Source: a virus. From it: a stretch of DNA of 59,827 nt. Position 1 is the first letter of the stretch. Every line of letters starts with the position of its first letter. The notes beneath the pieces were generated by a model. That model worked only from the letters and a program-made list of their open reading frames with translations. It ran no database searches and was not told where the DNA came from. The stretch lies in IMG/VR virus record IMGVR_UViG_3300027833_000054, positions 1 to 59,827 of that record. The stretch is one strand, 5' to 3'. This document shows, one piece after another, positions 14,676 through 52,239 of the stretch. The position numbers and the translations under genes were made by a program.

Positions 14676-16457
14676 ATGGCAACTGCTACACAAATTAAAG
14701 ATCTTCAAACTAGGCTTGATAAATTATTCAAACCTGCAGGTACAGTAAAGGCTACTAATGACACTTGGTCTCGTAACAAGCTAGCACTTGATACTATGGA
14801 ATCTGCTAATAAGATACCAGTTTTAAATCAAAGTGGATCCACTAAAGGTAAGTCTAAAGCATCTGCAGCAGCTTTAAAAGCATACCCAAATATGCCAGAA
14901 AGCTACAAAGAAATGTTATCAGACTTAGCTGGTCGTGAAGGATACAACCCTAACTTTTATCTAGACGGTTCAGGGTACTTGACTACAGGTGTTGGCCTTA
15001 CAGGTGAGTATGTTGCAGATGAAACACCTTTCAGATCTATGACAGACCATGAGAATAAGGCTAAACGTCTTGTTCCCGGACTTGAATACTACACTCCTGA
15101 GATACAGAAATCTATCATACATGCTGCTTACCGTGGAGACTTGACGTATCCTAAGGATGACAAGTACGGTAACAAAGCAGGTGATCCTTACAAGTGGGTT
15201 AACAATCTTAATTCTGGGAACTGGAATGAAGCTGCAGATGAGCTTTTAAGAAATGATGAGTACTTTGCTTCTCGAGGAGAAGACTCTAAAGGAAACTCTG
15301 TAGACATTAAAAACCCCGGACTTCAATCTTACTTTGAGGACATACACAATAGTCTTAAAGAACAACATTACATAGAGAACCCATCAGATAGGCCAGAAGA
15401 TTCTGGATTCATATCTGATATAGTGGACGATGGCTTAGCTTTTGGTAATAAAGTATTACGTAAAGTAGATCGAACTGTAGACTCAACTGTAGATTCTGTA
15501 CAAGGATTTATGGATGAGATGCTATCTACTGGTGAAATGCCAAAAGACAAAGTACCATCAATAAAAACACAAGAAATTCCAGTACCCGAACAAGGGGCTG
15601 CTGTACCTAAATCGGAGAATGAAATGGCAACACAAGCACAGGTTGATTCCTTTTTAAGGAAACGTAATGAACGAATTGGTCAAGAAGAAACAAGTTCTGG
15701 CAGAGTTAATACTAGTCGTTTAAATGATCCAAAACTTATGTCTAAGGATGGTGTTATTGTAGGTCGTGAACCTGTCGATAAGATCGGTGAGTACATAGGG
15801 CCTAATGAAATCATGGACAATCCATTATATAAAGATGAAATAACTAAAGCTCAGATGTTCCAAGATGCTAAGCGTATGCAACAGGGTCAAATCAACTTAC
15901 CAAATCAAATGGGAAGAGGGGATGGGGTAAGCGAGATGAAGCGTAGGTTAGCGGATGTACTTGCCACACCAAACCGTCAACAAGCAAGTCAGCTTAACAT
16001 GACACCACCTCAGGGAACTGTAGACCAAGGTCTTATGAGTGCTTTAGGTTACCAACCTCAGGGAACTGTAGACCAAGGTCTTATGAGTGCTTTAGGTTAC
16101 CAACCAGCAGTCAAAGAGCCAGCCGCTGTAGCTTACCCTAGCAAGCAAAGTAATATGGATAATATACTTCAGCAGACTCAACTCAACTTAGATAAAAGGA
16201 GTGGAGAAAACTATCATTTTGATCGGAATGGTAAATTAGTAATAGATATAAACCCTCATCTGCAAAACCCTACTATACCTATGGGTACTTTTCTTGACGG
16301 TAACGGACAACCTGTTGTGTCTGGTAATGGTTCTATGATTGGATCTCCCACACAGAACCCAGCTTATAGAGCACCTGCTGGCGGTAAAGGCGCTAATGCC
16401 ACACCTCAGTCAGCTATAGATCAGCTAACGGGTGTCAAAGGATTCGGAGGTAAGTAA
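14676..16457 (+). CDS. Virion-associated lysozyme-like internal protein (GH24 type)
   Basis: 593 residues. Residues about 75-220 form a T4-lysozyme-like domain: E88 in GREGY, D97 in YLDGSG and T103 in YLTTGVG reproduce the Glu-x8-Asp-x5-Thr spacing of the T4 lysozyme triad (E11, D20, T26). The rest is polar and mostly helical, with a tandem 16-residue duplication (PQGTVDQGLMSALGYQ) at about residues 445-476. It probably makes a local hole in peptidoglycan during DNA entry, the role of the transglycosylase in T7 gp16. Overlaps the next gene by one base. Confidence 0.75.
   Translation: MATATQIKDLQTRLDKLFKPAGTVKATNDTWSRNKLALDTMESANKIPVLNQSGSTKGKSKASAAALKAYPNMPESYKEMLSDLAGREGYNPNFYLDGSGYLTTGVGLTGEYVADETPFRSMTDHENKAKRLVPGLEYYTPEIQKSIIHAAYRGDLTYPKDDKYGNKAGDPYKWVNNLNSGNWNEAADELLRNDEYFASRGEDSKGNSVDIKNPGLQSYFEDIHNSLKEQHYIENPSDRPEDSGFISDIVDDGLAFGNKVLRKVDRTVDSTVDSVQGFMDEMLSTGEMPKDKVPSIKTQEIPVPEQGAAVPKSENEMATQAQVDSFLRKRNERIGQEETSSGRVNTSRLNDPKLMSKDGVIVGREPVDKIGEYIGPNEIMDNPLYKDEITKAQMFQDAKRMQQGQINLPNQMGRGDGVSEMKRRLADVLATPNRQQASQLNMTPPQGTVDQGLMSALGYQPQGTVDQGLMSALGYQPAVKEPAAVAYPSKQSNMDNILQQTQLNLDKRSGENYHFDRNGKLVIDINPHLQNPTIPMGTFLDGNGQPVVSGNGSMIGSPTQNPAYRAPAGGKGANATPQSAIDQLTGVKGFGGK
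16008..16103 (+). repeat. Perfect 48-bp tandem duplication within lysozyme-bearing virion gene
   Basis: Bases 16008-16055 and 16056-16103 are identical, including all synonymous positions. They encode two copies of PQGTVDQGLMSALGYQ. Perfect DNA identity points to a recent duplication or to ongoing slippage or recombination. Confidence 0.95.
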
Positions 16458-18535
16458 TGGCTGTTAATAAAAATATGCCTAAATTCTCAGGCACTAACAT
16501 ACCTAGGCCTGTTCCTGATCCAAACCAAGGTAAACTTAACTTTGATGGTAGAGGTAGGAAACCAAACCTAGCACCTAAAGTTGTCCCACCAGTTCAACCA
16601 GTTCCAGCTCAACAAGCATTAGACTTAGACAACACTGCTAAACCAAAAAATACTATACCTTCTGTAGATAAGAATGGTAACCCAAGGACTACTTTTCCAA
16701 AGGCTGCTGTAGATGATATGGGTAACAAGGTTAAACCAACTGATTACAAACAGCTTGCTAAGTTTGGTAAAGCTGCATGGAAAGCTTCTAAAATTCCTAG
16801 GGCATTAACACCTATAGGTCTTGGATCTATGGTACTGGAGGAAGCTCTTTTCCCCACAGTGTATGATGCAGATGAAACTAAAAGTGTTCTTGCTGAAGAA
16901 CAATCAGAGTTTGATGCAGATAATTTGAACTTATTAACTGCAGCACAAGACAAGGTTAATCTTTTAACAGAAGTAAATGCCAGCCCTGAGATTTTGAGTC
17001 AAGCTATATCAGATTTAGAAACTCTTAAAGCTAGCATAGACCCTGAACAATCTATCACTGAATGGGAAGATGATGTTAGGAAAGATTTAAAAACCAATCA
17101 AGATATCATTGACTCAAAAGTAGAATCTCTTTCAGATATGCCTGATGCTCTTAGACTTTCACTTAAGCCTTTATTAGAACAACGAGATGCTCTTGAAGCT
17201 AAGCTTGCTGATGCATCTTCTTGGCGTAAAAGTAAAGCTGAGACTGCTGCTGTTGAAAAAGATCCAGATGTTTCCACTATTGTGGACCTAGCTAATGATA
17301 TAACACCAGATGATATAAGTTCTTTGACGGATACTGATAAAACAGCAGTTGAAGAGGAAACTAAAACTGCGCTACAAGCTTTCTTTGATGGTACTGTCAG
17401 TACCCTTAAGGGAGCTATGTCACTTGCTGGTGAAGGTCTAGGCGATCTATGGGGTCAAAAGGCTATACGTAATGCACTTGTATACTACATGGGTGCACGT
17501 CTTATGGGATACTCTGCAAGTGGTTCAGGTATGGCTGCTGGTAATGTTCTTATTAAAGGTTGGGATAACCAAGCTGATGCAGATGCCCTTGCAGCTGAAG
17601 CTGCTACTAAGACTGCTGAGAACAATGCTATTGATATGTCTAAGACTGTTAACTATGTTGATCAGTATGGTAACTTCCAGAAGGTGTACGCATCTAAGAA
17701 CGGTAAGTTCCTGAACCATCCAAAGCTAGGTACTATCGATGTCTCCAAGACAGGATGGAGACCTGCTGCTACAGGTGAGAAGGATCGTCAGACTCGTAAG
17801 CTAGATGCAACAGACAGTGTTAATAAGATTCAAGATCAGGTATTAAATAACTTGAGATCTCAGACTAAGGATGCTGATGGTAATGGCATGTATGACGAGA
17901 ACAACGTTGGTAAAGTTACTCAGATGTTCCAAGAAGCTGGTCTGTCACAACAGATGGTAGACTCTTACACTGACTCATATGGTATTGATGGTCTTGAGAA
18001 GAGTATCCCAATGCTCAGACGAGCTATTGAGTCGTACTCATCAGCTGTTGCTGGTGGGGAGGAAGTTAAAATAGCTTCATTGATGGGACACTTAGATCGG
18101 GCAATGATAACCTCAGGTAAGACACAAGTACCTAAGTCTGTTTATCATTCAGAAGGTAAGGTAGTTGGTTCAGATTCAATGAATACACTATCAGAGAAAC
18201 TCACTAAGGTTCATCAAGTTCAGAAAGGTTATATAGATGTAGTCAAAGCTTCACCAGATCTTACAGATGATCAGAAGGAAGAGTTCATTTATTCTATGAA
18301 AACTGGAGCCACCAAAGCTGACATACTCATACAACTTAACAAGAGCTTCAATGCAATACCCCCGAACCACATGGACTTCTGGAAGAAACAGGCTAAGGAC
18401 TCCAACAAGTCCTCACCTTTCATCATGTGGCTTACATCTGTTACAGATCCGGGCAGACAGCATAGTAGTTATGAGAGTCTTAATATAAATGTATACAGAG
18501 ATCTTGGACTTATACCAAGCAATAAGAAGGAATAG
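16457..18535 (+). CDS. Large internal virion protein
   Basis: 692 residues. Pro-rich N-terminus (NIPRPVPDPNQGK; PPVQPVPAQQ), a short hydrophobic segment near residue 115 (ALTPIGLGSMVLEEALF), a long acidic coiled-coil region (about 140-280) and a Gly/Met-rich hydrophobic patch (YYMGARLMGYSASGSGMAAG) near 340-360. The C-terminal half is helical. It lies in the slot of T7 gp15-like core proteins. No enzymatic motif recognised. Confidence 0.5.
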   Translation: MAVNKNMPKFSGTNIPRPVPDPNQGKLNFDGRGRKPNLAPKVVPPVQPVPAQQALDLDNTAKPKNTIPSVDKNGNPRTTFPKAAVDDMGNKVKPTDYKQLAKFGKAAWKASKIPRALTPIGLGSMVLEEALFPTVYDADETKSVLAEEQSEFDADNLNLLTAAQDKVNLLTEVNASPEILSQAISDLETLKASIDPEQSITEWEDDVRKDLKTNQDIIDSKVESLSDMPDALRLSLKPLLEQRDALEAKLADASSWRKSKAETAAVEKDPDVSTIVDLANDITPDDISSLTDTDKTAVEEETKTALQAFFDGTVSTLKGAMSLAGEGLGDLWGQKAIRNALVYYMGARLMGYSASGSGMAAGNVLIKGWDNQADADALAAEAATKTAENNAIDMSKTVNYVDQYGNFQKVYASKNGKFLNHPKLGTIDVSKTGWRPAATGEKDRQTRKLDATDSVNKIQDQVLNNLRSQTKDADGNGMYDENNVGKVTQMFQEAGLSQQMVDSYTDSYGIDGLEKSIPMLRRAIESYSSAVAGGEEVKIASLMGHLDRAMITSGKTQVPKSVYHSEGKVVGSDSMNTLSEKLTKVHQVQKGYIDVVKASPDLTDDQKEEFIYSMKTGATKADILIQLNKSFNAIPPNHMDFWKKQAKDSNKSSPFIMWLTSVTDPGRQHSSYESLNINVYRDLGLIPSNKKE

Positions 18536-18538
18536 AAT

Positions 18539-21500
18539 ATGCTTAGAGATGATACGATGGAGGCTTTGTCTTCTGTTTTTGAAGATTACAAAACTGGAGA
18601 TGAGGCAGGATCATCTCAAGCACCTTCCTATAGGCTTGGGGATTCCGATTGGGCTTTGATTGATGGCGATACAGCTAAGAACCTTAAGACAGGTCAACGA
18701 GTTCGTGTAGGTAACATTGATACCCGTGAGGTTGGCAGAGTTATATCAGAAGGCGCTGATGCTGGGTTTAAACATGGTGAAGTTGGTGGTGAACTGGCAA
18801 CACAATACATCTGGGATCTTGCTAACAGACATGGTTTCACAAAGGTATCCTCAGGTGACGAGACTGACACTCATGATCGTTCACTTGGTGACCTGTACGA
18901 CCCTGATGGTGTTGCTTTATCAGACATGATGCTTGCATCTGGTATGGCACTCCCCGGATACATGGGTAAGTCTAAAGAGACTACAGATCCCTATGGATCT
19001 GATGTGTATATGGGTGGTGTCTATCAACGTGAGATGCGTGATCCTAACTTTGATAAGTTATCAGATTGGGAGAAGGCTGCAAAGTTACTCAGGTCTGCTG
19101 AGACTGCACACTCTGGTGGCATACCTATCGAAAAGGTTATGGCTTTTAACATGCAAGAGTACGCAGCTAACCCAGACTTATACAAGGGTATTCGTACTCG
19201 TATAGATGGGGCTGACTCTGAGGGCATGGCATACTCTCCAATGAGTGCAAGCTGGGATGTCTCATGGATGGGTATCGGTAAAGGTTTTGATCAGGTTATG
19301 TGGAAGCTGGCTGATGAAGCTGGGTTTGAAGATACTGCAACTTACTTTGCATCTGATGTAGCCACAGCTGAGAGGGAGATGGCAGAGATGCCTATGCTCC
19401 AATCAGATATAACTAAGGTTGATTGGTCTTCTTTTGATGAATCCACAGATTACCTTGCAACTATCTTCGGGTCTTCACTACCATATATGACAATGACTAT
19501 CGCAGGTATGGCAGCTGCCCCTGTGGTTGGAGCATTAGGTGCAGGAGCTGCTGCTGTAGGCACTGCAGGTGCCCTAGGAGCAACATCAACAGGTATGATG
19601 TACACTGGCTTAGTCTTAGATGAAATGGAAGGTGACATAGGTGATAAGAACTTACCACTTGCTATTGGTGCTGGTGCATTGATGATGGTTGCTGATCGCT
19701 TAGGCTTGAAAGGTATCATAGGTCCTAATCAGTTTCTCACTGGCAGTGGTAAGGCAGAACTTATAAAACACTTTACCGCCAAGGGTATGACAGAAGCTGC
19801 TGCTGAGAAGCAGATAGCTTCAATGGCTAAACTAGAGCTTGCTAAACTATCCAAAGATGGTTTTAAGTTTGCTCAAGATCAAGTAGTCAAGGGTGCTTTA
19901 TTTAAGAGGGTTGCTGGTCAGCTTTCAAGAGGTGCTGTCTTTGAAGGGAGTACGGAACTACTTCAGGAAATGACACAGTACACAGCTGCTGTGCTTGGCT
20001 CTGATAAAGAGTGGAACTTCGATGAAGTTGAGAACCGTATGATAAACGCAATAGCTGCTGGCGGTATCATGGGTGGTGCATTGTCAGTGCCCAAGACTGC
20101 ATTTGATGTAGGTGATTGGAGTTCAACTGCTGACTATTTAGATCCATCTAAGGCTGACAGGTATAACACTAAGTTTGATTATGCCGAAGAAGAAGAACTT
20201 AAGAGGCAGGGTAAGGTTCGTTCTAATGATGAATGGGCTGATGATCTACAGGCTTCTGCAAATGTTCGTGTTGAGAAAGCTTCCTTGGATAGTAAAGGTA
20301 AGGGTGGATCTGCATACAACCAAGACGGAAGCCGTAAGCCATCTAACGATAGCATGATGGAAGAAGCTGCAAACTCACACAGGAATAATAACCCCGAGGG
20401 ATTCCTTGGAGCTAAAGATATCTGGGCATTCATAAAGAACCCCCAGAACTTCTTCAGGTCTTCTGCATCACGGGCAATGATTAAGCTGGCTGAGGTTGAC
20501 TCTGAAGCTGCTAGATTATTAAGTGTTTTTGGTTACACAAGGCATGGTATCTTCCACGGAAGTAACTTTGCAGAGTACCAAAGGGTTAAGCAAGCCTCAC
20601 ATGAAACTCTTTCAGGTAAAGCAGTTGATAACTATAAGAAGTTTGACAGTGACCCACTGAGTAGTTCCACAGCTAAGCAAGCTTATGCATCTGATATGAT
20701 TAATGCTTTCTACAAAGAAGTGTTAGCGCCTATCACAGGTCGTAAGAACCGAAAAGGTGTGAAGACTATGGGTGTACGTCAGGCTATGTCTAAGATCAAC
20801 TGGGATAAGATAGACCCAAAGTATCTTAAAAACAGGGAAGCCTTAGAAAGTTCGTTGATCAAGTACGAAGCAATGCTTAACAGAGTATTTGAAGAGACTA
20901 ATGAAGTTAATGCAAAGGCCAAGAAGAGTCTTATCCATAACCTTCAAGACTTTATGTTCAGACATAAGGGTTTCAAGCGTGAGTACATAGATGCTAACAA
21001 GGCTAGGTTCATTCAGTTACTTTCAAAAGAGTATCGTATGTCACACACCCAAGCAACTAAGATAGCTGATAACATCATCAATGATACAGTCTTAGATGAC
21101 AACAAAGAGTTTAACGTGATGGAGGGTGGTATCTCACCATCTGAATATGAATCACGTACACTTGGACTCTCTGACAATGCACTCTTTGATGAGTTCCTTG
21201 AGCAAGACTTCTTCAATAACGTTGAGGAAGTGTCTCGTATGTCTTCACGATATCAGACTCATATGAAGTTCCTTGGTCGTAATGGTGAGGTGATGGATCA
21301 GGCTTTCCGTAACCTATACAGAGGTCTTATGGTTAAAGCAGGTACTGATACTGAACGTCAGGCAGAAGCTAAGGCTCAGTTCGATGAAGCTGCATTCCAT
21401 GTACGTAATCTTATCAATGCTGAGTCAGGTAACTACAAACGTATAGACAGTTACTACTTAAAGACAGCTCAGAAATACCTTACTCTTCTTACTGCAATGC

Positions 21501-22861
21501 AAGGCTTAGGTCTGGCAGCTATCTCCTCTTTCCCTGAGGTTGGATTACTGTTTCATGGTGTGCCACGTAAAGTCCTTGTTGATAACATAGGTCTTGCAGG
21601 TTACCAAGCTGGTAAAGCCCTTGCGTCTTACGCATCTAACCTTGGTGAAATCACTAGGGTATCTGGTGCAGCTGAGAAACTAGGGCTTAAGGATAAGGCT
21701 AATTCAAAAGAGGAACCTGTTGCACGTTCAGTCAAAGATCCTCGTAGGATGTTTGCAGGATCCCCTGAGACTATTGTCCAGAGGGTAGGCCTTAGTCTCC
21801 AAGAGACAGGGGCAGCAACCACAACAGGTATGGTTGAAACTAACCAGCTGACTAAGCATATTGCAGACGCATTCTTTAAGTCTAACTTCTTACAAGATCA
21901 GACACAGATGCACCGTAACATACGAGCTGCATTCTTTAATGACTTCTTGATTGATAAAATGGATCTCATAATGAGTTACAGGGGTAAGGAACCAACACCT
22001 GAACTTATGGAATCACGTAAGATGCTTAAGGACTTAGGTATTGATGTTGAAGCAATGACCCGTATCTCTAACCAGATGCTGGGTCTCCCTGATATCTCAA
22101 GCCTTACGCATGAAGATACAATGCGGATGGAAGAGTTGAATAAGAAGGTTAAAGATGGGCGTTCGCTCACAGCTTCTGAGAAAGCTTCATTCACCCGTAT
22201 CAATAATTTCTTAAAGTCTAGATCTGGTTGGGATGGTTTGTCACAAGCTGATCAGTCTACATGGGAACGTAACTTCTTGACAGGAGCTGGTCGGTTTATC
22301 AACCAAGCAGTGCCTATGCCAGATGCATTCAACAGACCTATACCATATAGTAATCAACATCTAATGTTACTTACTCAGTTTAATGGATATATCTCATCGT
22401 TTACTGCTAACCAGTTACCACGTTTGTGGGATGGTCTTAAGTACTCTAAGGGATTACGTTACTCAACCTTTGCTTCAGCAGCTACAATGCTGTTCATGGG
22501 ATTCCTGTCTCAGGCTATGAAAGACGAGCTTAAGTATGGAGAACCATCACCCTATTTGACAGACAGAGAAAAGGTTTTACGTATGATCTACTCTTCAGGA
22601 CTTATAGGCACTGGTGAGCGTATCATAGGTAGTCCAATGCTACTACCACTTTATAGTAGCAGTAGTAGAGACTTTACAGAGTGGACGTGGAATAACGTTG
22701 CAAGTGAAGCAGCTGCAGCAGGAACTGTTGAGAGATTCTACAGGATTGCTGAAGGCTACTTTGAAGATGATGATGCTAAGATGATGAAAAGTTTCTATGG
22801 AAGTCTACCGTTTTTAGGCCCAATGAAACATAGACTATATGAAGTTACTCAATGGAAATAA
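18539..22861 (+). CDS. Giant internal virion protein with SNase-like N-terminal domain
   Basis: 1440 residues, the size class of T7 gp16 (1318). Residues about 38-140 look like a staphylococcal-nuclease fold: WALIDGDT, GQRVRVGNIDTREV, then THDRSLGDLYDPDG and LASGMAL correspond in order to the DGDT, RL-x-x-VDTPE, D-x-x-GR-x-L and QGLA blocks of SNase. Candidate catalytic residues are R56 (or R54), E64 and R114. A Gly/Ala-rich hydrophobic stretch follows (about 315-360) and a long helical body with further hydrophobic patches (ALLTAMQGL-like region near 985). Likely ejected into the cell with the DNA. Nuclease activity is unproven. Confidence 0.55.
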   Translation: MLRDDTMEALSSVFEDYKTGDEAGSSQAPSYRLGDSDWALIDGDTAKNLKTGQRVRVGNIDTREVGRVISEGADAGFKHGEVGGELATQYIWDLANRHGFTKVSSGDETDTHDRSLGDLYDPDGVALSDMMLASGMALPGYMGKSKETTDPYGSDVYMGGVYQREMRDPNFDKLSDWEKAAKLLRSAETAHSGGIPIEKVMAFNMQEYAANPDLYKGIRTRIDGADSEGMAYSPMSASWDVSWMGIGKGFDQVMWKLADEAGFEDTATYFASDVATAEREMAEMPMLQSDITKVDWSSFDESTDYLATIFGSSLPYMTMTIAGMAAAPVVGALGAGAAAVGTAGALGATSTGMMYTGLVLDEMEGDIGDKNLPLAIGAGALMMVADRLGLKGIIGPNQFLTGSGKAELIKHFTAKGMTEAAAEKQIASMAKLELAKLSKDGFKFAQDQVVKGALFKRVAGQLSRGAVFEGSTELLQEMTQYTAAVLGSDKEWNFDEVENRMINAIAAGGIMGGALSVPKTAFDVGDWSSTADYLDPSKADRYNTKFDYAEEEELKRQGKVRSNDEWADDLQASANVRVEKASLDSKGKGGSAYNQDGSRKPSNDSMMEEAANSHRNNNPEGFLGAKDIWAFIKNPQNFFRSSASRAMIKLAEVDSEAARLLSVFGYTRHGIFHGSNFAEYQRVKQASHETLSGKAVDNYKKFDSDPLSSSTAKQAYASDMINAFYKEVLAPITGRKNRKGVKTMGVRQAMSKINWDKIDPKYLKNREALESSLIKYEAMLNRVFEETNEVNAKAKKSLIHNLQDFMFRHKGFKREYIDANKARFIQLLSKEYRMSHTQATKIADNIINDTVLDDNKEFNVMEGGISPSEYESRTLGLSDNALFDEFLEQDFFNNVEEVSRMSSRYQTHMKFLGRNGEVMDQAFRNLYRGLMVKAGTDTERQAEAKAQFDEAAFHVRNLINAESGNYKRIDSYYLKTAQKYLTLLTAMQGLGLAAISSFPEVGLLFHGVPRKVLVDNIGLAGYQAGKALASYASNLGEITRVSGAAEKLGLKDKANSKEEPVARSVKDPRRMFAGSPETIVQRVGLSLQETGAATTTGMVETNQLTKHIADAFFKSNFLQDQTQMHRNIRAAFFNDFLIDKMDLIMSYRGKEPTPELMESRKMLKDLGIDVEAMTRISNQMLGLPDISSLTHEDTMRMEELNKKVKDGRSLTASEKASFTRINNFLKSRSGWDGLSQADQSTWERNFLTGAGRFINQAVPMPDAFNRPIPYSNQHLMLLTQFNGYISSFTANQLPRLWDGLKYSKGLRYSTFASAATMLFMGFLSQAMKDELKYGEPSPYLTDREKVLRMIYSSGLIGTGERIIGSPMLLPLYSSSSRDFTEWTWNNVASEAAAAGTVERFYRIAEGYFEDDDAKMMKSFYGSLPFLGPMKHRLYEVTQWK

Positions 22862-22876
22862 TTGGAGGTAAACCCT

Positions 22877-25800
22877 ATGGCTGGTAAGTATACAGCTCTA
22901 AAGCAAAGTGGACCTAAGAGAGGTCTAAGCAGTGATACTGCTGATGCCCTTATGAGGGCAGGTGTGTTTGATACTGCACCTGAACAAGTAGGCCCCGAAG
23001 GGATTGCCCCTTTTAGCTCATCCCCACAAAAGCAACTACACATACCCGGAACAGAACGAGGTGGGCCAGTACCCGAAGGTGTCCAATGGGGTGGTGTTGA
23101 CACTGCCCCTACAGACATTGATCAAAGGGTTGCACCTGATCCTAATCAGACCAGTATGGATTTCGGTAATGAACCAACAGAGTACATGCAACCTAACCTT
23201 ACTCCTATGGAGCTAGAACAAAAGCAGATGGAGATGGAAGCACCTCAGTCACTTCAACAACAGTTCCAGTTAGGTAGTTCATCACCAGAGCTAGATTCTG
23301 GCTACTTAGGTCCTCAGGATCTTATGAAGATATGGGGTCCTATTCATGGCCCTGTTGTTGCAAGGTCTTTAGTGGGGCTTAAGAATGACTTTGATCTACT
23401 AGGTACTGCCAGATCCTTTGATAACACAGACAGGTTCCCTGACCCTGTGGAAGCTAAGACTGAGTACGAAAGTGGTCTTGGATTAATACAGAAGGGTGTG
23501 GCCAGTGTATTTGATCTTGACATTGGGTTCCTTAAAGCACCTGAAGAAGGTCAGGCAACCTTAGATCAAGATGGAAGGTATGCACTGACACAAGAGTCTT
23601 TGTTCGTAGGTCCTCAGGGACTTGATGCATCTGTTGTTTCTAATGACAACAGGGTGTACCGTATGGACCCTGACTACCTTATCAATTCGTTTGTAGTAGT
23701 GGAAGCTATGCTTGACAACAGTGGTTCATTCATACCACAAGAGGTCATTGATACACTACCCGAAGATGTTATGAAGCAGATTGGTATACTGGACGCTGCA
23801 AGTGAGAGTCAGGCAAGGACTGTTGTTGATATTGGTAGGTCTGTGTCTGATGCATGGCAGGGTTTCCGTCAGGTACGTGAAGGTGGTATGGATACCCTAG
23901 TTGACCCTAAGTTGTTTAAAAGGTTCTCAAGAGAAGCTAATCAACTCATAGGTTTCAATGCACTACATGCTTACAAGGAAGCCAACCCATCCTATGTTGA
24001 TGCTGTTGGAGAGATGATAGGCGGTAAGGCTCAACCTATACTGTATAACCTAACACCTACAGGTCGTAAGGCACTACAGTTACGTAGTAGTCAGGTATCC
24101 CCACCTAAGTTTAGAGTACCTCCTATTATCGGGGAGACCTCTAAGGACGGTCAGCCTAGGTATGCTTCAAGTACACGTACCAAGAAGACAACTGGTGCCC
24201 AGTATGATATGGGTCAGGTTGATGTTATCACTGATGCAATCAAGTTCTACTCTGATGTTAAGAGTGTTGTTGGAGGTATCCGAGGTAAGGCTGCATTCGG
24301 CTTTGGTATATCTGCATTAGAGGAAGCATCTTCTGTTGACCTTACTGAAGGTGTACCTAACAACCACCTTACTTTTGTATCAGACTTCTTTGATGTTGGG
24401 CATAAGCGTATTGATAAGATACGTAACATACCCGTAGAGATTGAGTATCAACTCAACGAAGCAAAGAAGAAGCTTGCAGATGCACGTAGATACTCTCCAA
24501 ACGATGGTGATAATATCTTATTGATAATGGATGTCAAAACTCTATCTGATTTCTTAGAGCTTGCAAGAACCCCTGAGTGGCAGAATGGTATGTATAAGAA
24601 ACATGCCACCAACCAACTGGAAGTTCTTAATGCGTTAGCTCACTACAAGAATGACCAGATAGGTTTTACCTTTCAACGTCAGTTAGGTAATACACGTGTC
24701 ACTATGCATCAGCACCACATAAGCCCTCAGAACCACAAGATGGTACGTCAGGTGCTTGGTTCTCCACATCTCTACAGTATCAGGCCCATGTCTAATACAG
24801 ATGAAGAGTTTGGTGTCGTGGTATCGATAGCTTCTTTCCTTCTTAAGGTAGGTGGTTTGAAACCTGATGTGGTGTACCGAGATACAATCAAACGTATTCA
24901 ATCTGGTAATGACCCCGAGCTTAAATCCCTTGAGGCCATAGGTACCGAGGTTGGTCATTGGTTGCTAGCATTTGAAGATGCTAATGCTGTAAGAGACCTT
25001 AAGCAACTTGAGTCTACACCTCAGGGTGTCATGGGTGTTGATAACTTACTTCGTAATGCAGAGCTTGAAGACTTCAAAGCAATCTTAGCTGACCTTTCAC
25101 AGGCCACTAGGGACTTTATAGATGCCAATGCCAAAGCTCATCCTGATGAGTTCATAAATGTATTAGAGGCTACTACAGAGCTTGCACGTTACATGCAATC
25201 CTATAGGTCTGGTAAACCGTATACATCACAGATGCGTATGGTTGCACAAGATGGTATTGCTAATGGACTTGCAGGTCTTATGGCTCAGTTAGGTCAGGAA
25301 CATATGATGCATCGTGTTGGTGTATACAGACGTAAAGGATCCCCTAGGATATTGGCTAAGTTTAAAGGAATTGCAGGTGACCCACGTGACTTACTGAAGC
25401 ATAACTTATTGACAAACCCTACCTCCGAGATAGGTAAAGCTAGTCCTGAGAATGCAATGAAGCTCACAAGGTTGGTTAAGCTAGCCACTGAGGATAAGAA
25501 GAACTTCCTTAAGCCTCCTCTTATGACTTTTGGTTATGGTCAAGAACTAAATAGCATGAAACATTATGCTGTTAAGGCAGTTATATCAAACCCAAACTCA
25601 GAGATAGGTCTTCTTGCTGGTGAAGTAGGTACTGACAAGGCAATAAATATTCTTACTGATTCACTTAAAGATAATATTTTAGCTACTGTAGGTTCTGATG
25701 TTGTTAACTATGTTGGTATGCTTAAGAGTTATGTGAAAGTCGCTGGGTTTGTAAATGAACCTATCATCTACTCACAACCAACAGGTCAGCAAACGTCTAT

Positions 25801-26686
25801 CAGTGGCACTGTTATGACTGAAACTAGGTTAGCGTCTGCTGCTGTCACTCGTACTCGTAAGAGGAATGAGAAAGGTCAGTTCTTTGATGTCACTAATAAG
25901 AAGAAGTTTGTATCACGTAACAAGGACGGTATTTATATTAGTGAAGGTGGTACCAGTAAGTCTGCTGTTACATCAACGTATGACATAGAGACCTCAGCAT
26001 TGTACGAGAGGAATGGTGTTGCAGGTTTAGGTGCAAGTCAGGGTGTATTAGCTCAGACTACTATTGGTTTTGATGCTGCATCTGTTGTTGCCTTAGTCAC
26101 TGGTAAGTCCCTTGCTAAACTTCGTGCTGCTCAGAATGGAAGAAACCCCTACTTGATACCTGTCTATGATGAGATCATAACAGATGCAGGTTCATTTAGG
26201 TCTGCGTATAAGGCTATAAACGATGCTTGGTTAGACACAACATTAGACTATGACATCATAGGTGAGATGCAGAAAGGTATCCGTGAGGCTACTCAAAGAG
26301 GTCTTGCTAACCTACGTGCAGCGGCAGAAGGTAATCCTTTAGGCTTCCCTGCAGACCCTAACTATTCCAAGTATGTTTATAGTGAGATGATGGGTATGGG
26401 CAGTGATAGTTCTATCTACTCTTCTGAACTTAAGTATAGGTCTCTTAACTATGTGAATAGCCTTGCCAGTAAAGCTGAGGGTATGATTGAGGAACCTTGG
26501 AATCTTATCACAAACAAGGATCTATACCAGATATCACTTGCAGTTCTTAACGATAGTGGTGTGAAGAACCTTGCGAAGTCCTTTGAGAAACTAAGGTTAC
26601 GTGCAAAGGAAGGACGTAAGCGTATCAGAGCTAAGGCTAAGGATGTACACCAGTATACTTTAGATTCATTACGTGAAGCTGATTAA
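22877..26686 (+). CDS. Giant internal virion protein
   Basis: 1269 residues from ATG 22877, chosen because GGAGG (22864-22868) lies eight bases upstream; a TTG at 22862 would leave that site inside the gene. The first 120 residues are Pro/Gln-rich and probably unstructured; the remainder is mostly helical with no recognised domain. It is the last gene of the rightward late operon and is followed by a terminator. By position and size it is a core or ejection protein, but I do not recognise the family. Confidence 0.5.
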   Translation: MAGKYTALKQSGPKRGLSSDTADALMRAGVFDTAPEQVGPEGIAPFSSSPQKQLHIPGTERGGPVPEGVQWGGVDTAPTDIDQRVAPDPNQTSMDFGNEPTEYMQPNLTPMELEQKQMEMEAPQSLQQQFQLGSSSPELDSGYLGPQDLMKIWGPIHGPVVARSLVGLKNDFDLLGTARSFDNTDRFPDPVEAKTEYESGLGLIQKGVASVFDLDIGFLKAPEEGQATLDQDGRYALTQESLFVGPQGLDASVVSNDNRVYRMDPDYLINSFVVVEAMLDNSGSFIPQEVIDTLPEDVMKQIGILDAASESQARTVVDIGRSVSDAWQGFRQVREGGMDTLVDPKLFKRFSREANQLIGFNALHAYKEANPSYVDAVGEMIGGKAQPILYNLTPTGRKALQLRSSQVSPPKFRVPPIIGETSKDGQPRYASSTRTKKTTGAQYDMGQVDVITDAIKFYSDVKSVVGGIRGKAAFGFGISALEEASSVDLTEGVPNNHLTFVSDFFDVGHKRIDKIRNIPVEIEYQLNEAKKKLADARRYSPNDGDNILLIMDVKTLSDFLELARTPEWQNGMYKKHATNQLEVLNALAHYKNDQIGFTFQRQLGNTRVTMHQHHISPQNHKMVRQVLGSPHLYSIRPMSNTDEEFGVVVSIASFLLKVGGLKPDVVYRDTIKRIQSGNDPELKSLEAIGTEVGHWLLAFEDANAVRDLKQLESTPQGVMGVDNLLRNAELEDFKAILADLSQATRDFIDANAKAHPDEFINVLEATTELARYMQSYRSGKPYTSQMRMVAQDGIANGLAGLMAQLGQEHMMHRVGVYRRKGSPRILAKFKGIAGDPRDLLKHNLLTNPTSEIGKASPENAMKLTRLVKLATEDKKNFLKPPLMTFGYGQELNSMKHYAVKAVISNPNSEIGLLAGEVGTDKAINILTDSLKDNILATVGSDVVNYVGMLKSYVKVAGFVNEPIIYSQPTGQQTSISGTVMTETRLASAAVTRTRKRNEKGQFFDVTNKKKFVSRNKDGIYISEGGTSKSAVTSTYDIETSALYERNGVAGLGASQGVLAQTTIGFDAASVVALVTGKSLAKLRAAQNGRNPYLIPVYDEIITDAGSFRSAYKAINDAWLDTTLDYDIIGEMQKGIREATQRGLANLRAAAEGNPLGFPADPNYSKYVYSEMMGMGSDSSIYSSELKYRSLNYVNSLASKAEGMIEEPWNLITNKDLYQISLAVLNDSGVKNLAKSFEKLRLRAKEGRKRIRAKAKDVHQYTLDSLREAD

Positions 26687-27573: not shown

Positions 27574-29820
27574 TTAACAAAAGAAATAGTCAGAAGATAT
27601 GATCTCAGATATATCTAAGTCACCAAGCTCTGGTTGTTTAAGTTCATAGCCCTCTCGGGTTTCTAGTAGCATCTCTTCTATAGCAGTAAAGAAGTTAGTG
27701 CTGTTGTACATCATAGCAAATTGCCACTTGGTGTGGTCAACAAGTTTATTCACATCACATGAATGGGTCGAAAAAGAATCATGTATAGCTCCAAAGTCTC
27801 CAGAGAAACTCTGAATAACTTTAGCCATGTGCGCTGCGTCCATTGAGTGGACAAAGTTAGGTGAGCATCCAGATGCAAACGATCTCCTACATGGCAACAG
27901 ATCGCCATTGGAAGTGATGTAAGGTATCTTAATGCTGTGACCTATCTGACCAAGACCACGGATGGTACTGCGTACAGTGATGTTCTTCTGCCTCCACACT
28001 TCATACAACACTGGGAATCCTGAGGGAGTTGTCCAACGTGTACATGTCTCACCTGTTGATAAGATATGGTCAGTCATCTTCTGTATAAACTTCATGGTCT
28101 TTAAGGGTCCTACGCATGTGTCATTGATTGCAAGTATTAATTGCTTTGACAGAGGGGTACAGTCATCTTCAGTGATATTGTACATCTTATCATAGCCTTC
28201 AACCTTACAGTCGTAGTACATGTTAGCAGCTATCTTTTTCTGACCAGCTGAGTAAGCCCTTGTCATGGAGCCACGTTTAGCTATCCCTTTCCTGATAGCT
28301 TTCATTGGTATGTTACGTTCAGCAAACCACTCAGGCATCCTGTCGATAAGACGTTTAGCCACTTGAACATAGAAGTCTTTCTGTATTTCGCTTGGTACTA
28401 GGGACACAAGCTCACCAGCTTCTTTGTCTTTAGAGATAGCTGCCAGATGTTGCCAACCATTATTACTCCCGTCAACCGGGATAGGTGTACGACTCATGTG
28501 TACTTTATTATTTAGTACAGCATTGTTATAACCTGCCACATCTAAGCAACATGCAAGAAAGCTAACGGGCTTTTCTGCTTCTGTCCTGAAGCTTTGTCCA
28601 TCCGCTAATTGGTTTATCCAAGTCAGGTTGTTTAGGGTCCACAACTCTCGATCCTTTAGGGTCATCTTGTCTACTGAGATTGTGGATAATCCTTCGTCTT
28701 GAAGATAAGTTTTGTAGTCCGCTGTCGCCCATTCGGGTAGTTCCTCCAGTTCATATGATTGATTATAAGAACAAGCTGTATGTATGCACAACCACCTGTA
28801 TCCCTCAGTGTCCATAGCTTTTGCATAAGCAAACTCAAAGAGTCCTTTAGATACATCAGACCCTTGGAAGTTTAGGAATGGCTCAGTGTAGTACACACGT
28901 CCACGATAGTCACACTCTACCATCTGATAGAAGTCACGTAGTCCTATGGCATGTACCTTAGCCATGACAAACTTCATCTCTATAGCTTTTGATTTAGCTT
29001 TTATAGACTCATCTTCAAGATCTATGAACAATCCTAGGTTAGTCTCTAAGGCTTTGGCAACTGTACTGTTGAGTCTCCAAGGTGTTTGCTGTAGCTTGTT
29101 AAGGGCAGTGATAAAAGGTGCTCCTATAAGCTGCTTAAAGTCTTCCTCTGAACTCATACGCTTTATGTATGGCCTCTTGGTGAACTCATTACGCAATGAC
29201 ATGATGTCTTTTGGGGGTGTGAAAGACGTACCTATAAGCGTACTCTTTATATACTCAGGTGGTAGGTCTCCAAGGGTAGCCCATGTGCTTAGCAACTGTA
29301 TAATGTACGGTGCACGAAACCCTTTGTACTCTCTTTCAATATGGATATAACCCAGTTGAAAGAAAGCTTCTAGGTATAGGTCACCTACTGCCAGAATCTC
29401 TTGATGGTTAGTGTTTAGTACACCTAAAGCAGACAGCACCTGTAAGCCTATCACAGACGATGTGACGGTTAGTTTAAAGGGGCTAGCTGATGACCTTCGG
29501 GACTTCTGATAAGCTGCCACAGCACCTGCTACGGCCCTTACAGATAGCTTCTCGTAGCTACATCCATATGGGATCATTGAAGAGATCAATCTGGCCCCTT
29601 CTGGGGGCCTCCCACGGAACGTATTACCCTCACATCTTTCCTTGATATACTCTGTTATCTTTTCTATACCACCTGAGTTATCCAGTGTACTCGAGGAAGT
29701 CCTCTTGTCCTCTGAGTCGGTTGGTTCTGGTGTCGTAGTATGCTGAACCACAGTCTCCAGTTCGTCCTGTGAATCGTGACTTAAGTACTCGGAGTTTAAT
29801 TGTGTTTCTTTCATCTTCAT
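27574..29820 (-). CDS. Single-subunit DNA-dependent RNA polymerase (T7 type)
   Basis: 748 residues, shorter than T7 RNA polymerase (883). Motif A with the first catalytic Asp is in PVDGSNNGWQHLAA (T7: DGSCSGIQHFSA). Motif B is RKGIAKRGSMTRAYS, with the conserved K, R and Y. Motif C with the second catalytic Asp is AIHDSFSTHSCD (T7: LIHDSFGT). It should read phage promoters such as those at 42136, 46801, 50145 and 50192. The first 48 residues or so overlap the end of the primase gene by 143 bases and are low in complexity, so the true start may be further in. The gene is at the distal end of the early operon rather than near its beginning as in T7. Confidence 0.9.
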   Translation of the reverse strand: MKMKETQLNSEYLSHDSQDELETVVQHTTTPEPTDSEDKRTSSSTLDNSGGIEKITEYIKERCEGNTFRGRPPEGARLISSMIPYGCSYEKLSVRAVAGAVAAYQKSRRSSASPFKLTVTSSVIGLQVLSALGVLNTNHQEILAVGDLYLEAFFQLGYIHIEREYKGFRAPYIIQLLSTWATLGDLPPEYIKSTLIGTSFTPPKDIMSLRNEFTKRPYIKRMSSEEDFKQLIGAPFITALNKLQQTPWRLNSTVAKALETNLGLFIDLEDESIKAKSKAIEMKFVMAKVHAIGLRDFYQMVECDYRGRVYYTEPFLNFQGSDVSKGLFEFAYAKAMDTEGYRWLCIHTACSYNQSYELEELPEWATADYKTYLQDEGLSTISVDKMTLKDRELWTLNNLTWINQLADGQSFRTEAEKPVSFLACCLDVAGYNNAVLNNKVHMSRTPIPVDGSNNGWQHLAAISKDKEAGELVSLVPSEIQKDFYVQVAKRLIDRMPEWFAERNIPMKAIRKGIAKRGSMTRAYSAGQKKIAANMYYDCKVEGYDKMYNITEDDCTPLSKQLILAINDTCVGPLKTMKFIQKMTDHILSTGETCTRWTTPSGFPVLYEVWRQKNITVRSTIRGLGQIGHSIKIPYITSNGDLLPCRRSFASGCSPNFVHSMDAAHMAKVIQSFSGDFGAIHDSFSTHSCDVNKLVDHTKWQFAMMYNSTNFFTAIEEMLLETREGYELKQPELGDLDISEIISSDYFFC

Positions 29821-48127: not shown

Positions 48128-48161
48128 AAAAAAAAGGCAGGAGACTCCGTTAGGAGCCTCC
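48128..48161 (-). terminator. Rho-independent terminator after SSB-like gene 2
   Basis: Minus strand: GGAGGCTCC TAAC GGAGTCTCC stem-loop followed by TGCC and TTTTTTTT. It is 14 bases past the stop of the gene at 48175. Strong canonical form. Confidence 0.85.
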
Positions 48162-48597: not shown

Positions 48598-48689
48598 AAT
48601 TATGATCCTTTCCACTTGGTGGAATTAAATTGGTGTGAGAGGTTGGAGAGTCCAACAGCTTCACGTAGGTATTGTTTTATGTAATACCC

Positions 48690-48708
48690 AAAAGGAGCCG
48701 AAGGCTCT
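48690..48708 (-). terminator. Short hairpin terminator
   Basis: Minus strand AGAGCCTTCGGCTCCTTTT: a GAGCC/GGCTC stem with small TTC loop and a TTTT run. It repeats the element at 49102. It closes a gene-free interval on its left. Confidence 0.6.
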
Positions 48709-49095: not shown

Positions 49096-49101
49096 ATACC
49101 C

Positions 49102-49120
49102 AAAAGGAGCCGAAGGCTCT
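49102..49120 (-). terminator. Short hairpin terminator (same element as 48690)
   Basis: Minus strand AGAGCCTTCGGCTCCTTTT again, 412 bases to the right of its twin, just after the end of another hairpin (GGCCGTAAGGCC). It lies downstream of the gene at 49179, behind the terminator at 49144. Confidence 0.6.
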
Positions 49121-49143: not shown

Positions 49144-49171
49144 TAAAAAGAAAAGGACCCGTAAGGGTCCT
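49144..49171 (-). terminator. Rho-independent terminator after first leftward gene
   Basis: Minus strand AGGACCC TTAC GGGTCCT stem-loop followed by TTTCTTTTTA. It is eight bases past the stop of the gene at 49179. Confidence 0.8.
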
Positions 49172-49367: not shown

Positions 49368-49441
49368 GGGCTAATCCTCTTGGATGAGTTGGTGGTACTG
49401 AAATTAGTACCTTAGAGGAGCCAAAGGCTCCAAGTCAATAC

Positions 49442-49782
49442 TAAACCAGACAGCTCTGGCTCACGAAGTGAGACATGTCTGAGTATACAGTTAGTTAATG
49501 TCTTTAGTGTAAACTAAGTCAGACAGCTTTGGCTCACGAAGTGAGACATGTCTGAGTATACAGTTAGTCAATGTCTTTAGTGTAAACCAAGTCAGACAGC
49601 TTTGGCTCACGAAGTGAGACATGTCTGAGTATACAGTTAGTCAATGTCTTTAGTATGAACTAAGTCAGACAGCTTTGGCTCACGCAGTGAGACATGTCTG
49701 ATTATACAGTTAGTTAATGTCTTTAGTGTAAACCAAGTCAGACAGCTCTGGCTCACGCAGTGAGACATGTCTGATTACATAG
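49442..49782. repeat. Five tandem 73-bp hairpin repeats
   Basis: Copies begin with CAGACAG at 49447, 49520, 49593, 49666 and 49739, an exact 73-bp period. Each has a 35-bp hairpin block (CAGACA … CTCAC G(A/C)A GTGAG … TGTCTG, with the palindrome AGACATGTCT) and a 38-bp linker. The fifth copy breaks off after the hairpin block. Changes are mostly in loops (GAA in copies 1-3, GCA in 4-5). On the minus strand each linker holds TATACT (TATAAT in one) right before the hairpin. Candidate origin, operator or promoter array. Confidence 0.9.
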
Positions 49783-49819
49783 TTATATTGAACAGCGTTG
49801 CGGCTACTTCCTAAGGACT

Positions 49820-49874
49820 ACATTAGTATTACATTAGTATTACATTAGTATTACATTAGTACTACATTAGTATT
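49820..49874. repeat. Five 11-bp iterons (ACATTAGTATT)
   Basis: ACATTAGTATT at 49820, 49831, 49842, 49853 (one change, ACT for ATT end) and 49864, head to tail on one face of the helix. Iterons of one helical turn next to hairpin repeats and A+T-rich DNA are a usual feature of replication origins. No initiator protein gene is recognised. Confidence 0.85.
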
Positions 49875-50144
49875 GCTGGTAGTGATGGATTACATTGTGT
49901 ATGTATGGGTATATATGTACTTCTTTGGGAGTTCTTTGGGCTATCCCCCGGTACCCCTCGGGACTACAAGAGAACAGCTGACCCTTCTGTAGTTCTAGGT
50001 GATTACTAAAGGATTCTTAGGGATTCTTGGGGAGTTCTGAGGGATATCAAGGGGGGTCCCTGAAGTATGAAGGGTACCTTGATATATAGGGACTTACCCG
50101 TGTATCCCCTAAGGAAACTTATAGGATCCTAATAAATCAATGTG

Positions 50145-50171
50145 TAATCTTTTAAGTACCTTATAGGAACA
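50145..50171 (+). promoter_or_regulatory. Phage RNA polymerase promoter candidate (rightward) 1
   Basis: Contains TTTTAAGTACCTTATAGG, preceded by TAATC and followed by AACA. The 27 bases are identical to the next site, 47 bases away. TAAT at the left and TATAGG at the right recall the T7 promoter ends (TAAT … TATAGGG), with G of AGG as the likely first base. It points to the large terminase gene. Confidence 0.65.
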
Positions 50172-50191
50172 CTAAGGGTTTTCTCATAGGA

Positions 50192-50218
50192 TAATCTTTT
50201 AAGTACCTTATAGGAACA
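50192..50218 (+). promoter_or_regulatory. Phage RNA polymerase promoter candidate (rightward) 2
   Basis: Perfect 27-bp duplicate of the site at 50145, same orientation. Duplicated promoters in front of the virion gene block would raise late expression. The 350-base leader to the terminase gene holds further hairpins. Confidence 0.65.
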
Positions 50219-50568
50219 ATAGTGAAGTAGTTAGGGTAGTACATACTGGACACGGTAAGGTACTACCTTAAGAGATACGAGGGGGTCTCTGAGTAACTAC
50301 ATCACTGTACCTTTATCTCATATATATGGGATATAGTGGTCAGATACCCCCTCAAAGAGTAGTAAGGATGTCTTAAGGGTTCTTAAGGAGTCCCTAAGGT
50401 CAACTACTACTGCTATACCTTCTTATATACTAGTAGGTTACTTAGGGATACTATAGGTACTATAGGTTCCTTAGAAGTACTATGAGGTAACTACTCTTTT
50501 ATTTATTTTGTATTGCTTAAAAACCTCTATGCCGGGGGTTACCTAAACGTAGTCTTGGAGGACTCCCT

Positions 50569-52239
50569 TTGGAAACTGAAATAAACAATAAAAGTTCGTC
50601 TATGACGAATAGACAGAAGCTGGCTTTAGCAGTAGAAGCTAAGAAACGTAAGGATCTCTCAAGATACGAGGGGTCCTTTCAAGAGTTTGCCAAAGAACAG
50701 ATCCGTATATTACCAAAAGATGCATCTAAAGGATTTATACCCTTAGAATTCAATGCAGCACAGCAGATTGTAGATAATGCAATAGAGAAACAACTGAAAG
50801 AAACAGGCAAAGTACGAGCTATTATACTCAAAGCAAGGCAGATGGGGTTATCTACCTACTCTTGTGGACGTGTGTACTGGAAGTCGTACCTTACACCGTT
50901 TAATAAATCAGTAGTTATGGCTCATGACTCTGCAACATCTGATGCACTCTTTGCCATGTCCCGGAACATAATCCAGAATATGAAACCTGAGTTCACACCT
51001 ATACTCAAGAAGTCTAACTCAAAGGAGATAGGGTTTGAACATAATGACTCAGGTTACCGTCTGTACACAGCAGGTTCCCCCGAGGCTGGTCGTGGAACCA
51101 CACCAACTATTGCTCACCTATCTGAGGTTGCTTTTTGGACTCATGATGCAAAGATACTTGCTGGCTTATTCCAAGGTATCTCACAAGCTGATGGCACAGA
51201 GGTAATCTTAGAGTCAACTGCTAATGGCGTAGGCAACGAGTTCCACAGGCTATGGAAGGGTGCAGTTGCTGGTGAAAACGAGTACATACCTATCTTTGTG
51301 CCTTGGTTCCTTATGCCAGAGTACAGACGCTTTGTACTAGAACCTGAGATATTCTCAGAGACTATCACAGAAGCAGAGGAAGAACTACAAACCTTACACG
51401 GTTTGGATATTGAACAGTTATACTGGAGGCGTCTTAAGATAGCCGAAGGGGGTGTAGATAAGTTTAAACAAGAGTACCCGTCTACAGCTAATGAAGCATT
51501 TATAGTTTCAGGGTCTAATGTGTTTGACACTGGTAAGTTAATGAATACAAAAACTATACCATGTGTTAAGAAACAAAACTTTAGTATTGAATCATGTATG
51601 TTTGACGATCACAGAGAAGGTAATCTGGAGATCTTTAAGTACCCTAAGTTTGACAGTAACTTCATCATCGGAGCTGACTGTGCCTTAGGTGTTGGACAAG
51701 ACTACTCAGCAGCAGTAGTATTAAATGCAGACAGGGAAGTATGTGCTGTCTACCGTAATAACAAGATAGACCCCACTCAATATGGTGATCTATTATTCTA
51801 TTTAGGTAGATACTATAACAACTCTTTGCTTGCAGTGGAATCTAATTCCTTAGGTATAGCAACACTAAACCGATTAAAACAAATGGATTACGTGAACTTA
51901 TACCATCAAACTAAAGTAGCTAATGTATCTAATGAGGAAGGTACTCGTCTGGGTTGGAGGACTACCCAAGCTACTAAGCCAATGATCATAGGGCATCTTA
52001 AGAACGCAATAGAGAATGATGACATAGCTCTATCGTCCCCCATTATCATACAAGAGTGTATGAACTATGTGGCTGATGCCAGTGGCAAAACAAATGCTAT
52101 CTCAGGTTGTCATGATGACACAGTAATAGCAACAGCAATAGCCTTAGAGGTTCTTCGTACTCACGGAGAAAGGCTGTCAACAACAAGGGTTTCTTTTAAG
52201 AACCAATCATTTGTAGTTGACAACACTCAATGGCTTTAA
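50569..52239 (+). CDS. terL: Terminase large subunit
   Basis: 556 residues. The start is TTG 50569: GGAGG at 50557-50561 is seven bases away, while the first ATG (50602) has no ribosome site. Packaging ATPase: Walker A-like KARQMGLST near residues 88-96 and Walker B-like TIAHLSEVAFW near 180-190, with a coupling motif ILESTANGVGNEF (S/T-A-N). C-terminal nuclease: Asp in IIGADCALGVGQDYSA, Glu in LLAVESNSLG, Asp in ISGCHDDTVIATAIA. It translocates DNA into the prohead through the portal encoded next. Confidence 0.92.
   Translation: METEINNKSSSMTNRQKLALAVEAKKRKDLSRYEGSFQEFAKEQIRILPKDASKGFIPLEFNAAQQIVDNAIEKQLKETGKVRAIILKARQMGLSTYSCGRVYWKSYLTPFNKSVVMAHDSATSDALFAMSRNIIQNMKPEFTPILKKSNSKEIGFEHNDSGYRLYTAGSPEAGRGTTPTIAHLSEVAFWTHDAKILAGLFQGISQADGTEVILESTANGVGNEFHRLWKGAVAGENEYIPIFVPWFLMPEYRRFVLEPEIFSETITEAEEELQTLHGLDIEQLYWRRLKIAEGGVDKFKQEYPSTANEAFIVSGSNVFDTGKLMNTKTIPCVKKQNFSIESCMFDDHREGNLEIFKYPKFDSNFIIGADCALGVGQDYSAAVVLNADREVCAVYRNNKIDPTQYGDLLFYLGRYYNNSLLAVESNSLGIATLNRLKQMDYVNLYHQTKVANVSNEEGTRLGWRTTQATKPMIIGHLKNAIENDDIALSSPIIIQECMNYVADASGKTNAISGCHDDTVIATAIALEVLRTHGERLSTTRVSFKNQSFVVDNTQWL

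Follow-up and report, generated by a model that had tools for sequence, protein, structure and literature searches.

Organization of the locus

The window, by which we mean the whole stretch of DNA analyzed here, is a virus record of 59.8 kb. Its TerL is encoded at 50569-52239, and the closest homolog among named phages is that of Roseobacter phage CRP-7 (55.7% identity). The late genes run rightward from TerL. Those for early functions and replication have the opposite, leftward orientation and occupy the stretch between 49367 and about 26800; an array of tandem repeats is located upstream of this leftward block (Table 1). The adjacent stretch of about 780 bp (49785-50568) lacks an ORF, and its conservation among near relatives is about 90%; it contains the ends of several contigs, so that a genome end may lie there. 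Five 11-bp repeats, TACATTAGTAT, adjoin the array at 49819-49874, and the matching place in a relative (L003) holds different short repeats, of the GGACTATGTTA type. Elsewhere, adjacent rIIA-like and rIIB-like genes are found in the leftward block (43916-46779), and nested repeats of 21, 42, 105, and 210 bp are present close to the window end (58802-59336).

Table 1. Features of the window that bear on the proposed early promoter region (numbers in promoter names are the labels used in the text)
Feature	Coordinates	Strand	Remarks
Tandem array, five 73-bp units	49440..49785	+ (proposed template strand; transcription leftward)	TRF, repeat finder
Array hairpin 1, TGG-CTCAC(GAA)GTGAG-ACA	49457..49475	+	DNA fold, core matches
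Array hairpin 2, loop GAA	49530..49548	+	
Array hairpin 3, loop GAA	49603..49621	+	
Array hairpin 4, loop GCA	49676..49694	+	
Array hairpin 5, loop GCA	49749..49767	+	
Candidate leftward hairpin promoter 49424	49410..49431	-	GGAGCC(AAA)GGCTCC on + (template), then GGTACT on -
Candidate leftward hairpin promoter 49113	49099..49119	-	GAGCC(GAA)GGCTC, then cttttGGGTATT; predicted start about 49101-49099
Candidate leftward hairpin promoter 48701	48687..48707	-	GAGCC(GAA)GGCTC, then cttttGGGTATT; predicted start about 48689-48687
Early ORF, 62 aa	49179..49367	-	44 nt below the predicted start at 49411
Intrinsic terminator	49154..49171	-	below the 62-aa ORF
Early ORF, 140 aa	48175..48597	-	below candidate promoter 48701
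Intrinsic terminator	48140..48161	-	below the 140-aa ORF
Candidate virion RNA polymerase, 1269 aa, Cys-free	22877..26686	+	end of late block
Three Cys-free late ORFs (593, 692, and 1440 aa), ejection-protein-like	14676..22861	+	directly before the polymerase
Second, T7-like RNA polymerase, 748 aa, 15 Cys	27574..29820	-	end of leftward block

An earlier sequence-only reading had described the array as five 73-bp tandem hairpin repeats, and this description is accurate: TRF reports a period of 73 bp, 4.7 copies, and 93% matches, and the units are spaced 73, 73, and 73 bp start to start, as the repeat finder also indicates. The hairpin core reads CTCAC-GAA-GTGAG in three units and CTCAC-GCA-GTGAG in two, is followed in each by AGACATGTCT, and is flanked by the arms CAGACA and TGTCTG. 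When up to three mismatches are allowed, the 19-nt core has five matches in the window, against 0.08 expected by chance, and no other match in the window outside the array. Among 14 copies from the window and close relatives, the segment CAGACAGCTyTGGCTCACGnAGTGAGACATGTCTGA is constant except for one pyrimidine and the central base of the loop, in keeping with the conserved arms and the change from a GAA to a GCA loop remarked on in that reading; the linker between hairpins is variable. The number of copies differs among near-identical phages, with five in the window, two in L003, L029, L030, and G010, and one in L005. The search of relatives for compensatory arm changes that had been recommended yielded one case: the outer arm CAGACA/TGTCTG of the window corresponds to CAGAGA/TCTCTG in the distant relative L035, where both sides are altered and pairing is therefore retained. 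In L018, the 19-nt core alone is retained. BLASTN searches of named phages with the region and with the unit produced no meaningful match.

Several functions had been put forward for this block, the first being a series of tandem early host promoters with a -10-like box in each linker and a palindromic operator. The position upstream of the leftward early genes fits this proposal, and most copies do have TATACT or TATAAT before the palindrome, but the box is not present in every copy, since several lose the conserved A (TGTACT, TGTAAT) with the hairpin unchanged. Furthermore, there is no -35 element at the right distance (16-18 nt), no minus-strand promoter match within the array, and the region as a whole contains 9 promoter-like sites, compared to 9.4 expected by chance. 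Thus, with a -10 box that is not conserved and lacks a -35 partner, sigma-70 promoters are unsupported and in our judgment highly improbable; the assignment to an early leftward region is the part of the proposal that stands.

A replication origin of the iteron type, or a partition-like site, with repeats bound by a replication protein, would account for tandem copies of variable number, for the palindrome, and for the location beside the 780-bp non-coding region and the 11-bp repeats. However, no DnaA boxes were detected at 49-50.6 kb and there is no extremum of GC skew at the array, which speaks against a DnaA-type origin; the copy number falls to one in L005; and the array hairpins have a direction and a loop in common with single hairpins located before GG starts and early ORFs (see below), features for which an iteron has no need. 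An origin of this type is accordingly an improbable explanation.

As DNA, the array unit folds to -10.0 kcal/mol on the plus strand versus -7.6 kcal/mol on the minus strand. The hairpins would form in RNA too, and any transcript starting upstream of the array would include it, so that a repeated structured RNA, an attenuator, or a small RNA in the leftward leader has to be considered. Folded as RNA, the unit does not clearly outperform shuffled sequences (z of -0.2 and -1.4, against -3.4 for the plus-strand DNA core, the lengths folded being different), and Rfam and tRNA scans of the region returned no match. Given, in addition, that the loop rule described below applies to the plus strand, opposite to the RNA, we consider an RNA-level element, including the repeated small RNA of the initial reading, to be very improbable.

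A class of C(GNA)G hairpins upstream of early genes

Each array unit contains, on the proposed template strand, a hairpin of at least 5 bp with a C(GNA)G loop, and closely comparable single hairpins precede the early ORFs. The three candidates listed in Table 1 (49424, 49113, and 48701) all have a template-strand hairpin with a 5-7 bp stem and a 3-nt loop, followed by GG or GGG at nt 11-13 after the loop and a start of the GG(G/T)A type. The loop is GAA at 49113 and 48701, in conformity with C(GNA)G, and AAA, outside GNA, at 49424; the predicted start of the latter is the GG at 49411-49410, in the sequence tctaaGGTACT, and this GG is positioned as in relatives. Moreover, candidate promoter 49113 begins just past the terminator of the 62-aa ORF. 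Judged by sequence, these three elements look like complete hairpin promoters.

Two of them, the GAGCC(GAA)GGCTC hairpins, had been marked as terminator-like, that at 49113 because of its TTTT, and the reverse complement of the GAA loop is UUCG. They could on this basis be leftward terminators with UUCG tetraloops, the array then being an unrelated duplex operator. However, the GTA, GCA, and GGA loops of relatives cannot be UUCG; the T-run comprises at most four residues and gives way to a conserved GG(T/A)A; the early promoter sites of phage N4 carry the same TTTTGG; and separate terminators with longer T-runs are present at 49171 and 48161. We regard this combined reading, of terminators and an operator, as highly improbable. 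The operator or hairpin leader invoked in the sequence-only reading is better read as a template-strand DNA hairpin of the kind used by the N4 virion RNA polymerase (vRNAP).

The window contains 7 perfect C(GNA)G hairpins of at least 5 bp, every one of them on the plus strand within 48.7-49.8 kb, and none elsewhere in the 60 kb, where there are 82 hairpins with three-base loops. Simulations of the region gave a mean of 0.017 such hairpins, and when the array was collapsed to a single copy, none of 2000 simulations reached the observed 3. To cover relatives, TerL loci were drawn from IMG/VR in two scans, providing 139 kb of sequence upstream of TerL from 82 contigs. Among the 3-nt-loop hairpins upstream of terL in this set, C(GAA)G ranks first, C(GTA)G second, and C(GCA)G joint third, which makes C(GNA)G the commonest loop class, with 30 distinct template-strand sites compared to a single one on the opposite strand. 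The stems are diverse, including CTCAC, GAGCC, GGAGCC, GAGGC, GGGGGC, GGTGGC, GGACC, GGGTC, GCCAC, GGCGC, GGGGC, GAGCCC, GGCCGC, and CCAGCC; the changes in loop and arms, which had been expected to be informative, indeed amount to a loop that is kept and stems that change across relatives. Because the sites had been picked for pairing, no use was made of counts of compensatory changes in their stems. At 20 of 24 non-array (non-CTCAC) sites, the loop is followed at a distance of exactly 12 nt by GG, mostly as GG(T/A)A. GG was not a selection criterion, but sites taken from phages related to one another are not entirely independent.

Two contigs contain hairpins with 4-nt loops, namely C(GAAA)G in two copies 48 bp apart in L019 (terL at 1100; about 1000-1056 upstream) and C(GCCA)G in L184 (about -1066). 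Both have GG(T) at about nt 11, and they may represent further variants of the same promoter class; the GNNA tetraloop class as a whole showed no enrichment.

The array units differ from the single hairpins in that GG is found at nt 11-13 after the loop in none of the 8 CTCAC-type sites. Their -8 base is A, whereas N4 requires G. Nevertheless, their inner CAC/GTG is shared with full promoters of L031 and L152, and in L152 this extends to CAC(GAA)GTG. About 41 bp separate the 49424 hairpin from the nearest array hairpin, which lies upstream of it, and in L035, a full promoter is preceded by two CTCAC hairpins at distances of 49 and 99 bp.

A candidate virion RNA polymerase

The sequence-only reading had held that nothing else in the window explains the block. 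The window, however, encodes a matching candidate polymerase, and that statement is therefore incorrect. The ORF at 22877-26686, which has a GGAGGT ribosome-binding site before its ATG, has one PHROG match (phrog_414, RNA polymerase, E 6e-8), and iterated searches recovered homologs with identity down to about 24%. The catalytic motifs R, D, K/Y, and D are invariant in 17 homologs, the residues being R607 with Q618, K621, and R624; D792-G with N796-G; K879 with Y887-G; and D1098. Comparison with a single N4 mini-vRNAP sequence was no more than suggestive (E 0.016). In a profile-profile comparison, the 17-member family matched the cores of nine Schitoviridae vRNAPs with a probability of 95.6 and an E of 1.2e-8 over 251 columns, and the first three motifs were aligned with R424/NPQS.K, D559, and K670 of N4. 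For the family of the phage's own T7-like RNA polymerase, represented by two sequences only, the E was 0.004, and for an unrelated control family it was 0.67.

The AF2 model is of modest confidence, with a mean pLDDT of 59.9, higher in the core, and Foldseek matched it to T7, mitochondrial, and N4 polymerases with a probability of 1.00, indicating a single-subunit RNA polymerase fold; T7 and mitochondrial enzymes rank above the N4 vRNAP in the fold search of PDB, which counts against the N4-type interpretation, and the viral structure matches include several annotated vRNAPs. Sequence searches of PDB with the polymerase and its profiles returned no relevant match, and no homologs were found in genomes of bacteria and archaea.

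We infer that the enzyme is a virion component only from the position of its gene and from the absence of cysteine. It is encoded in a late, virion gene neighborhood, and nearly all members of its family are Cys-free (one examined member has a single Cys); the vRNAPs of LUZ7 and LIT1 are likewise reported to be Cys-free (PMC3715699). The first of the three preceding Cys-free ORFs, of 593 aa, has a weak lysozyme match and contains an exact 48-bp tandem repeat (16007-16105). The polymerase ORF is in frame with the 1440-aa ORF, from which a single stop separates it (18539-26686). A 2715-aa read-through fusion was considered and dropped, given that the polymerase has its own ribosome-binding site and that the two ORFs are not in frame in L071 and L072. 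The second, T7-like RNA polymerase likely serves a later gene class.

The polymerase homolog and the hairpins are both present in the window phage, G010, and G014-G018, and both were searched for without success in CRP-7, G001, G002, and G013, which are near-complete TerL-related records of 58-60 kb: no polymerase homolog was found in these four, nor any template-strand C(GNA)G hairpin upstream of terL. CRP-7 gp33, which is alike in position and size, was examined as a possible counterpart and has no detectable homology to the polymerase. The correspondence is incomplete. In G004/L015, which has the polymerase homolog, the 3 kb preceding TerL yielded no C(GNA)G hairpin. Neither did the vicinity of TerL in the L007/L008/L010 lineage, with the polymerase present in G003 of the L010 lineage.

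A model for early transcription

Taken together, we propose that the block is part of an early promoter region and that infection is started by an RNA polymerase carried in the virion, in the manner of N4, an interpretation that we regard as probable; that the region is a vRNAP hairpin-promoter region appears to us highly likely. Under this model, the short C(GNA)G hairpins would be extruded on the plus strand through negative supercoiling of the entering genome, the polymerase encoded at 22877-26686 would bind the hairpin on the template strand, and a leftward RNA would begin about 10-13 nt past the loop. As the C(GNA)G hairpins are on the plus strand, taken to be the template, transcription is predicted to proceed leftward, in agreement with the orientation of the genes. 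The full promoter signature would be that of the hairpins 49424, 49113, and 48701.

The role of the array is predicted with less assurance. Its units are rather likely to be read by the virion polymerase in some way, whether they serve as extra starts of a non-canonical kind or help, as accessory hairpins, to load the enzyme upstream of promoter 49424. That each unit is itself a start site is a tentative proposition, to which we would give somewhat less than an even chance; in the window phage, an AG at N4 spacing could provide the start. An unlikely variant is that the array is a hairpin enhancer devoid of starts: its easily extruded C(GNA)G hairpins would catch polymerase molecules during genome entry and pass them to the promoter about 41 bp downstream, whose AAA loop would be the weaker one.

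If the model is correct, a compact version of the vRNAP system, with a polymerase of 1.27 kaa, exists in a widespread marine phage group. The identity of the polymerase falls to about 24-30% between relatives and the hairpin stems change by lineage, and these phages would thereby supply naturally varied polymerase-hairpin pairs with which to study how a protein reads a DNA hairpin, as well as a smaller enzyme for structural work and in vitro use. Furthermore, a simple rule, a C(GNA)G hairpin followed by GG, could be used to find early promoters in uncultured phages. Should the enhancer variant hold, it would represent a new promoter architecture for single-subunit RNA polymerases.

Comparison with known systems

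Published work has regarded the virion RNA polymerase as exclusive to the N4 family (PMC12633501, PMC5512222); proteins under 2500 aa were dropped in a survey of vRNAPs (PMC10654107). The window phage differs from N4 in its TerL (phrog_2 versus phrog_38, with neither BLASTP nor profile similarity) and in its major capsid protein (phrog_1328 versus phrog_1357, with no BLASTP similarity); the portal proteins both match phrog_1216, that of the window far more weakly. Given TerL and capsid families unlike those of N4, the N4-type system would be one outside Schitoviridae, and a compact virion polymerase system in a marine phage group is, on the sequence evidence, the most likely description. By TerL, the closest named phage is CRP-7, with which the window phage also shares a T7-like RNA polymerase at about 37-43% identity. 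Unlike the window phage, CRP-7 lacks both the virion polymerase homolog and the C(GNA)G hairpins, and the paper on CRP-7-type podoviruses reports no promoters (PMC6918029).

With respect to the polymerase, the candidate belongs to the same superfamily as T7 RNA polymerase but is closer to the N4 vRNAPs than to the T7-like enzyme of the same phage. It resembles N4 vRNAP (gp50) in being Cys-free, late-encoded, and of T7 fold, and in its matching motifs, including a block similar to R..NPQS.K.R. In contrast to the N4 enzyme of about 3500 aa, and to the 2842-3820 aa of vRNAPs in reference genomes (PMC10654107), it is a free-standing protein of 1269 aa with its own start and ribosome-binding site.

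The parallel extends to the promoters. T7-type promoters are double-stranded sequences, not hairpins, whereas the candidates in the window are hairpins, as are the vRNAP promoters of N4, which are located on the template strand (PMC4496689). In N4, a C-G closing pair together with a 5' G and a 3' A in the loop is required for extrusion, the polymerase reads a purine at -11, G at -10, G at -8, and C at +1, and the three vRNAP promoters, P1-P3, lie in the leftmost tenth of the genome (PMC4496689). Our scan, applied as a positive control to the first 12 kb of N4, detected exactly three sites, one before gp1 (at 96), one before gp2 (at 565), and one before gp15 (at 4554), each with GG(T/A) at nt 10; by number, place, and sequence, we read these as P1-P3. 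The window group differs from N4 in that its GG is at nt 12 after the loop rather than nt 10 and its -8 base is not fixed as G, and the window additionally has five tandem CTCAC hairpins without GG. What the two systems have in common is a template-strand hairpin with a stem of 5-7 bp and, candidate 49424 with its AAA loop apart, a C(GNA)G loop, a GG(T/A) start just past the stem, and several copies of this arrangement before the early genes.
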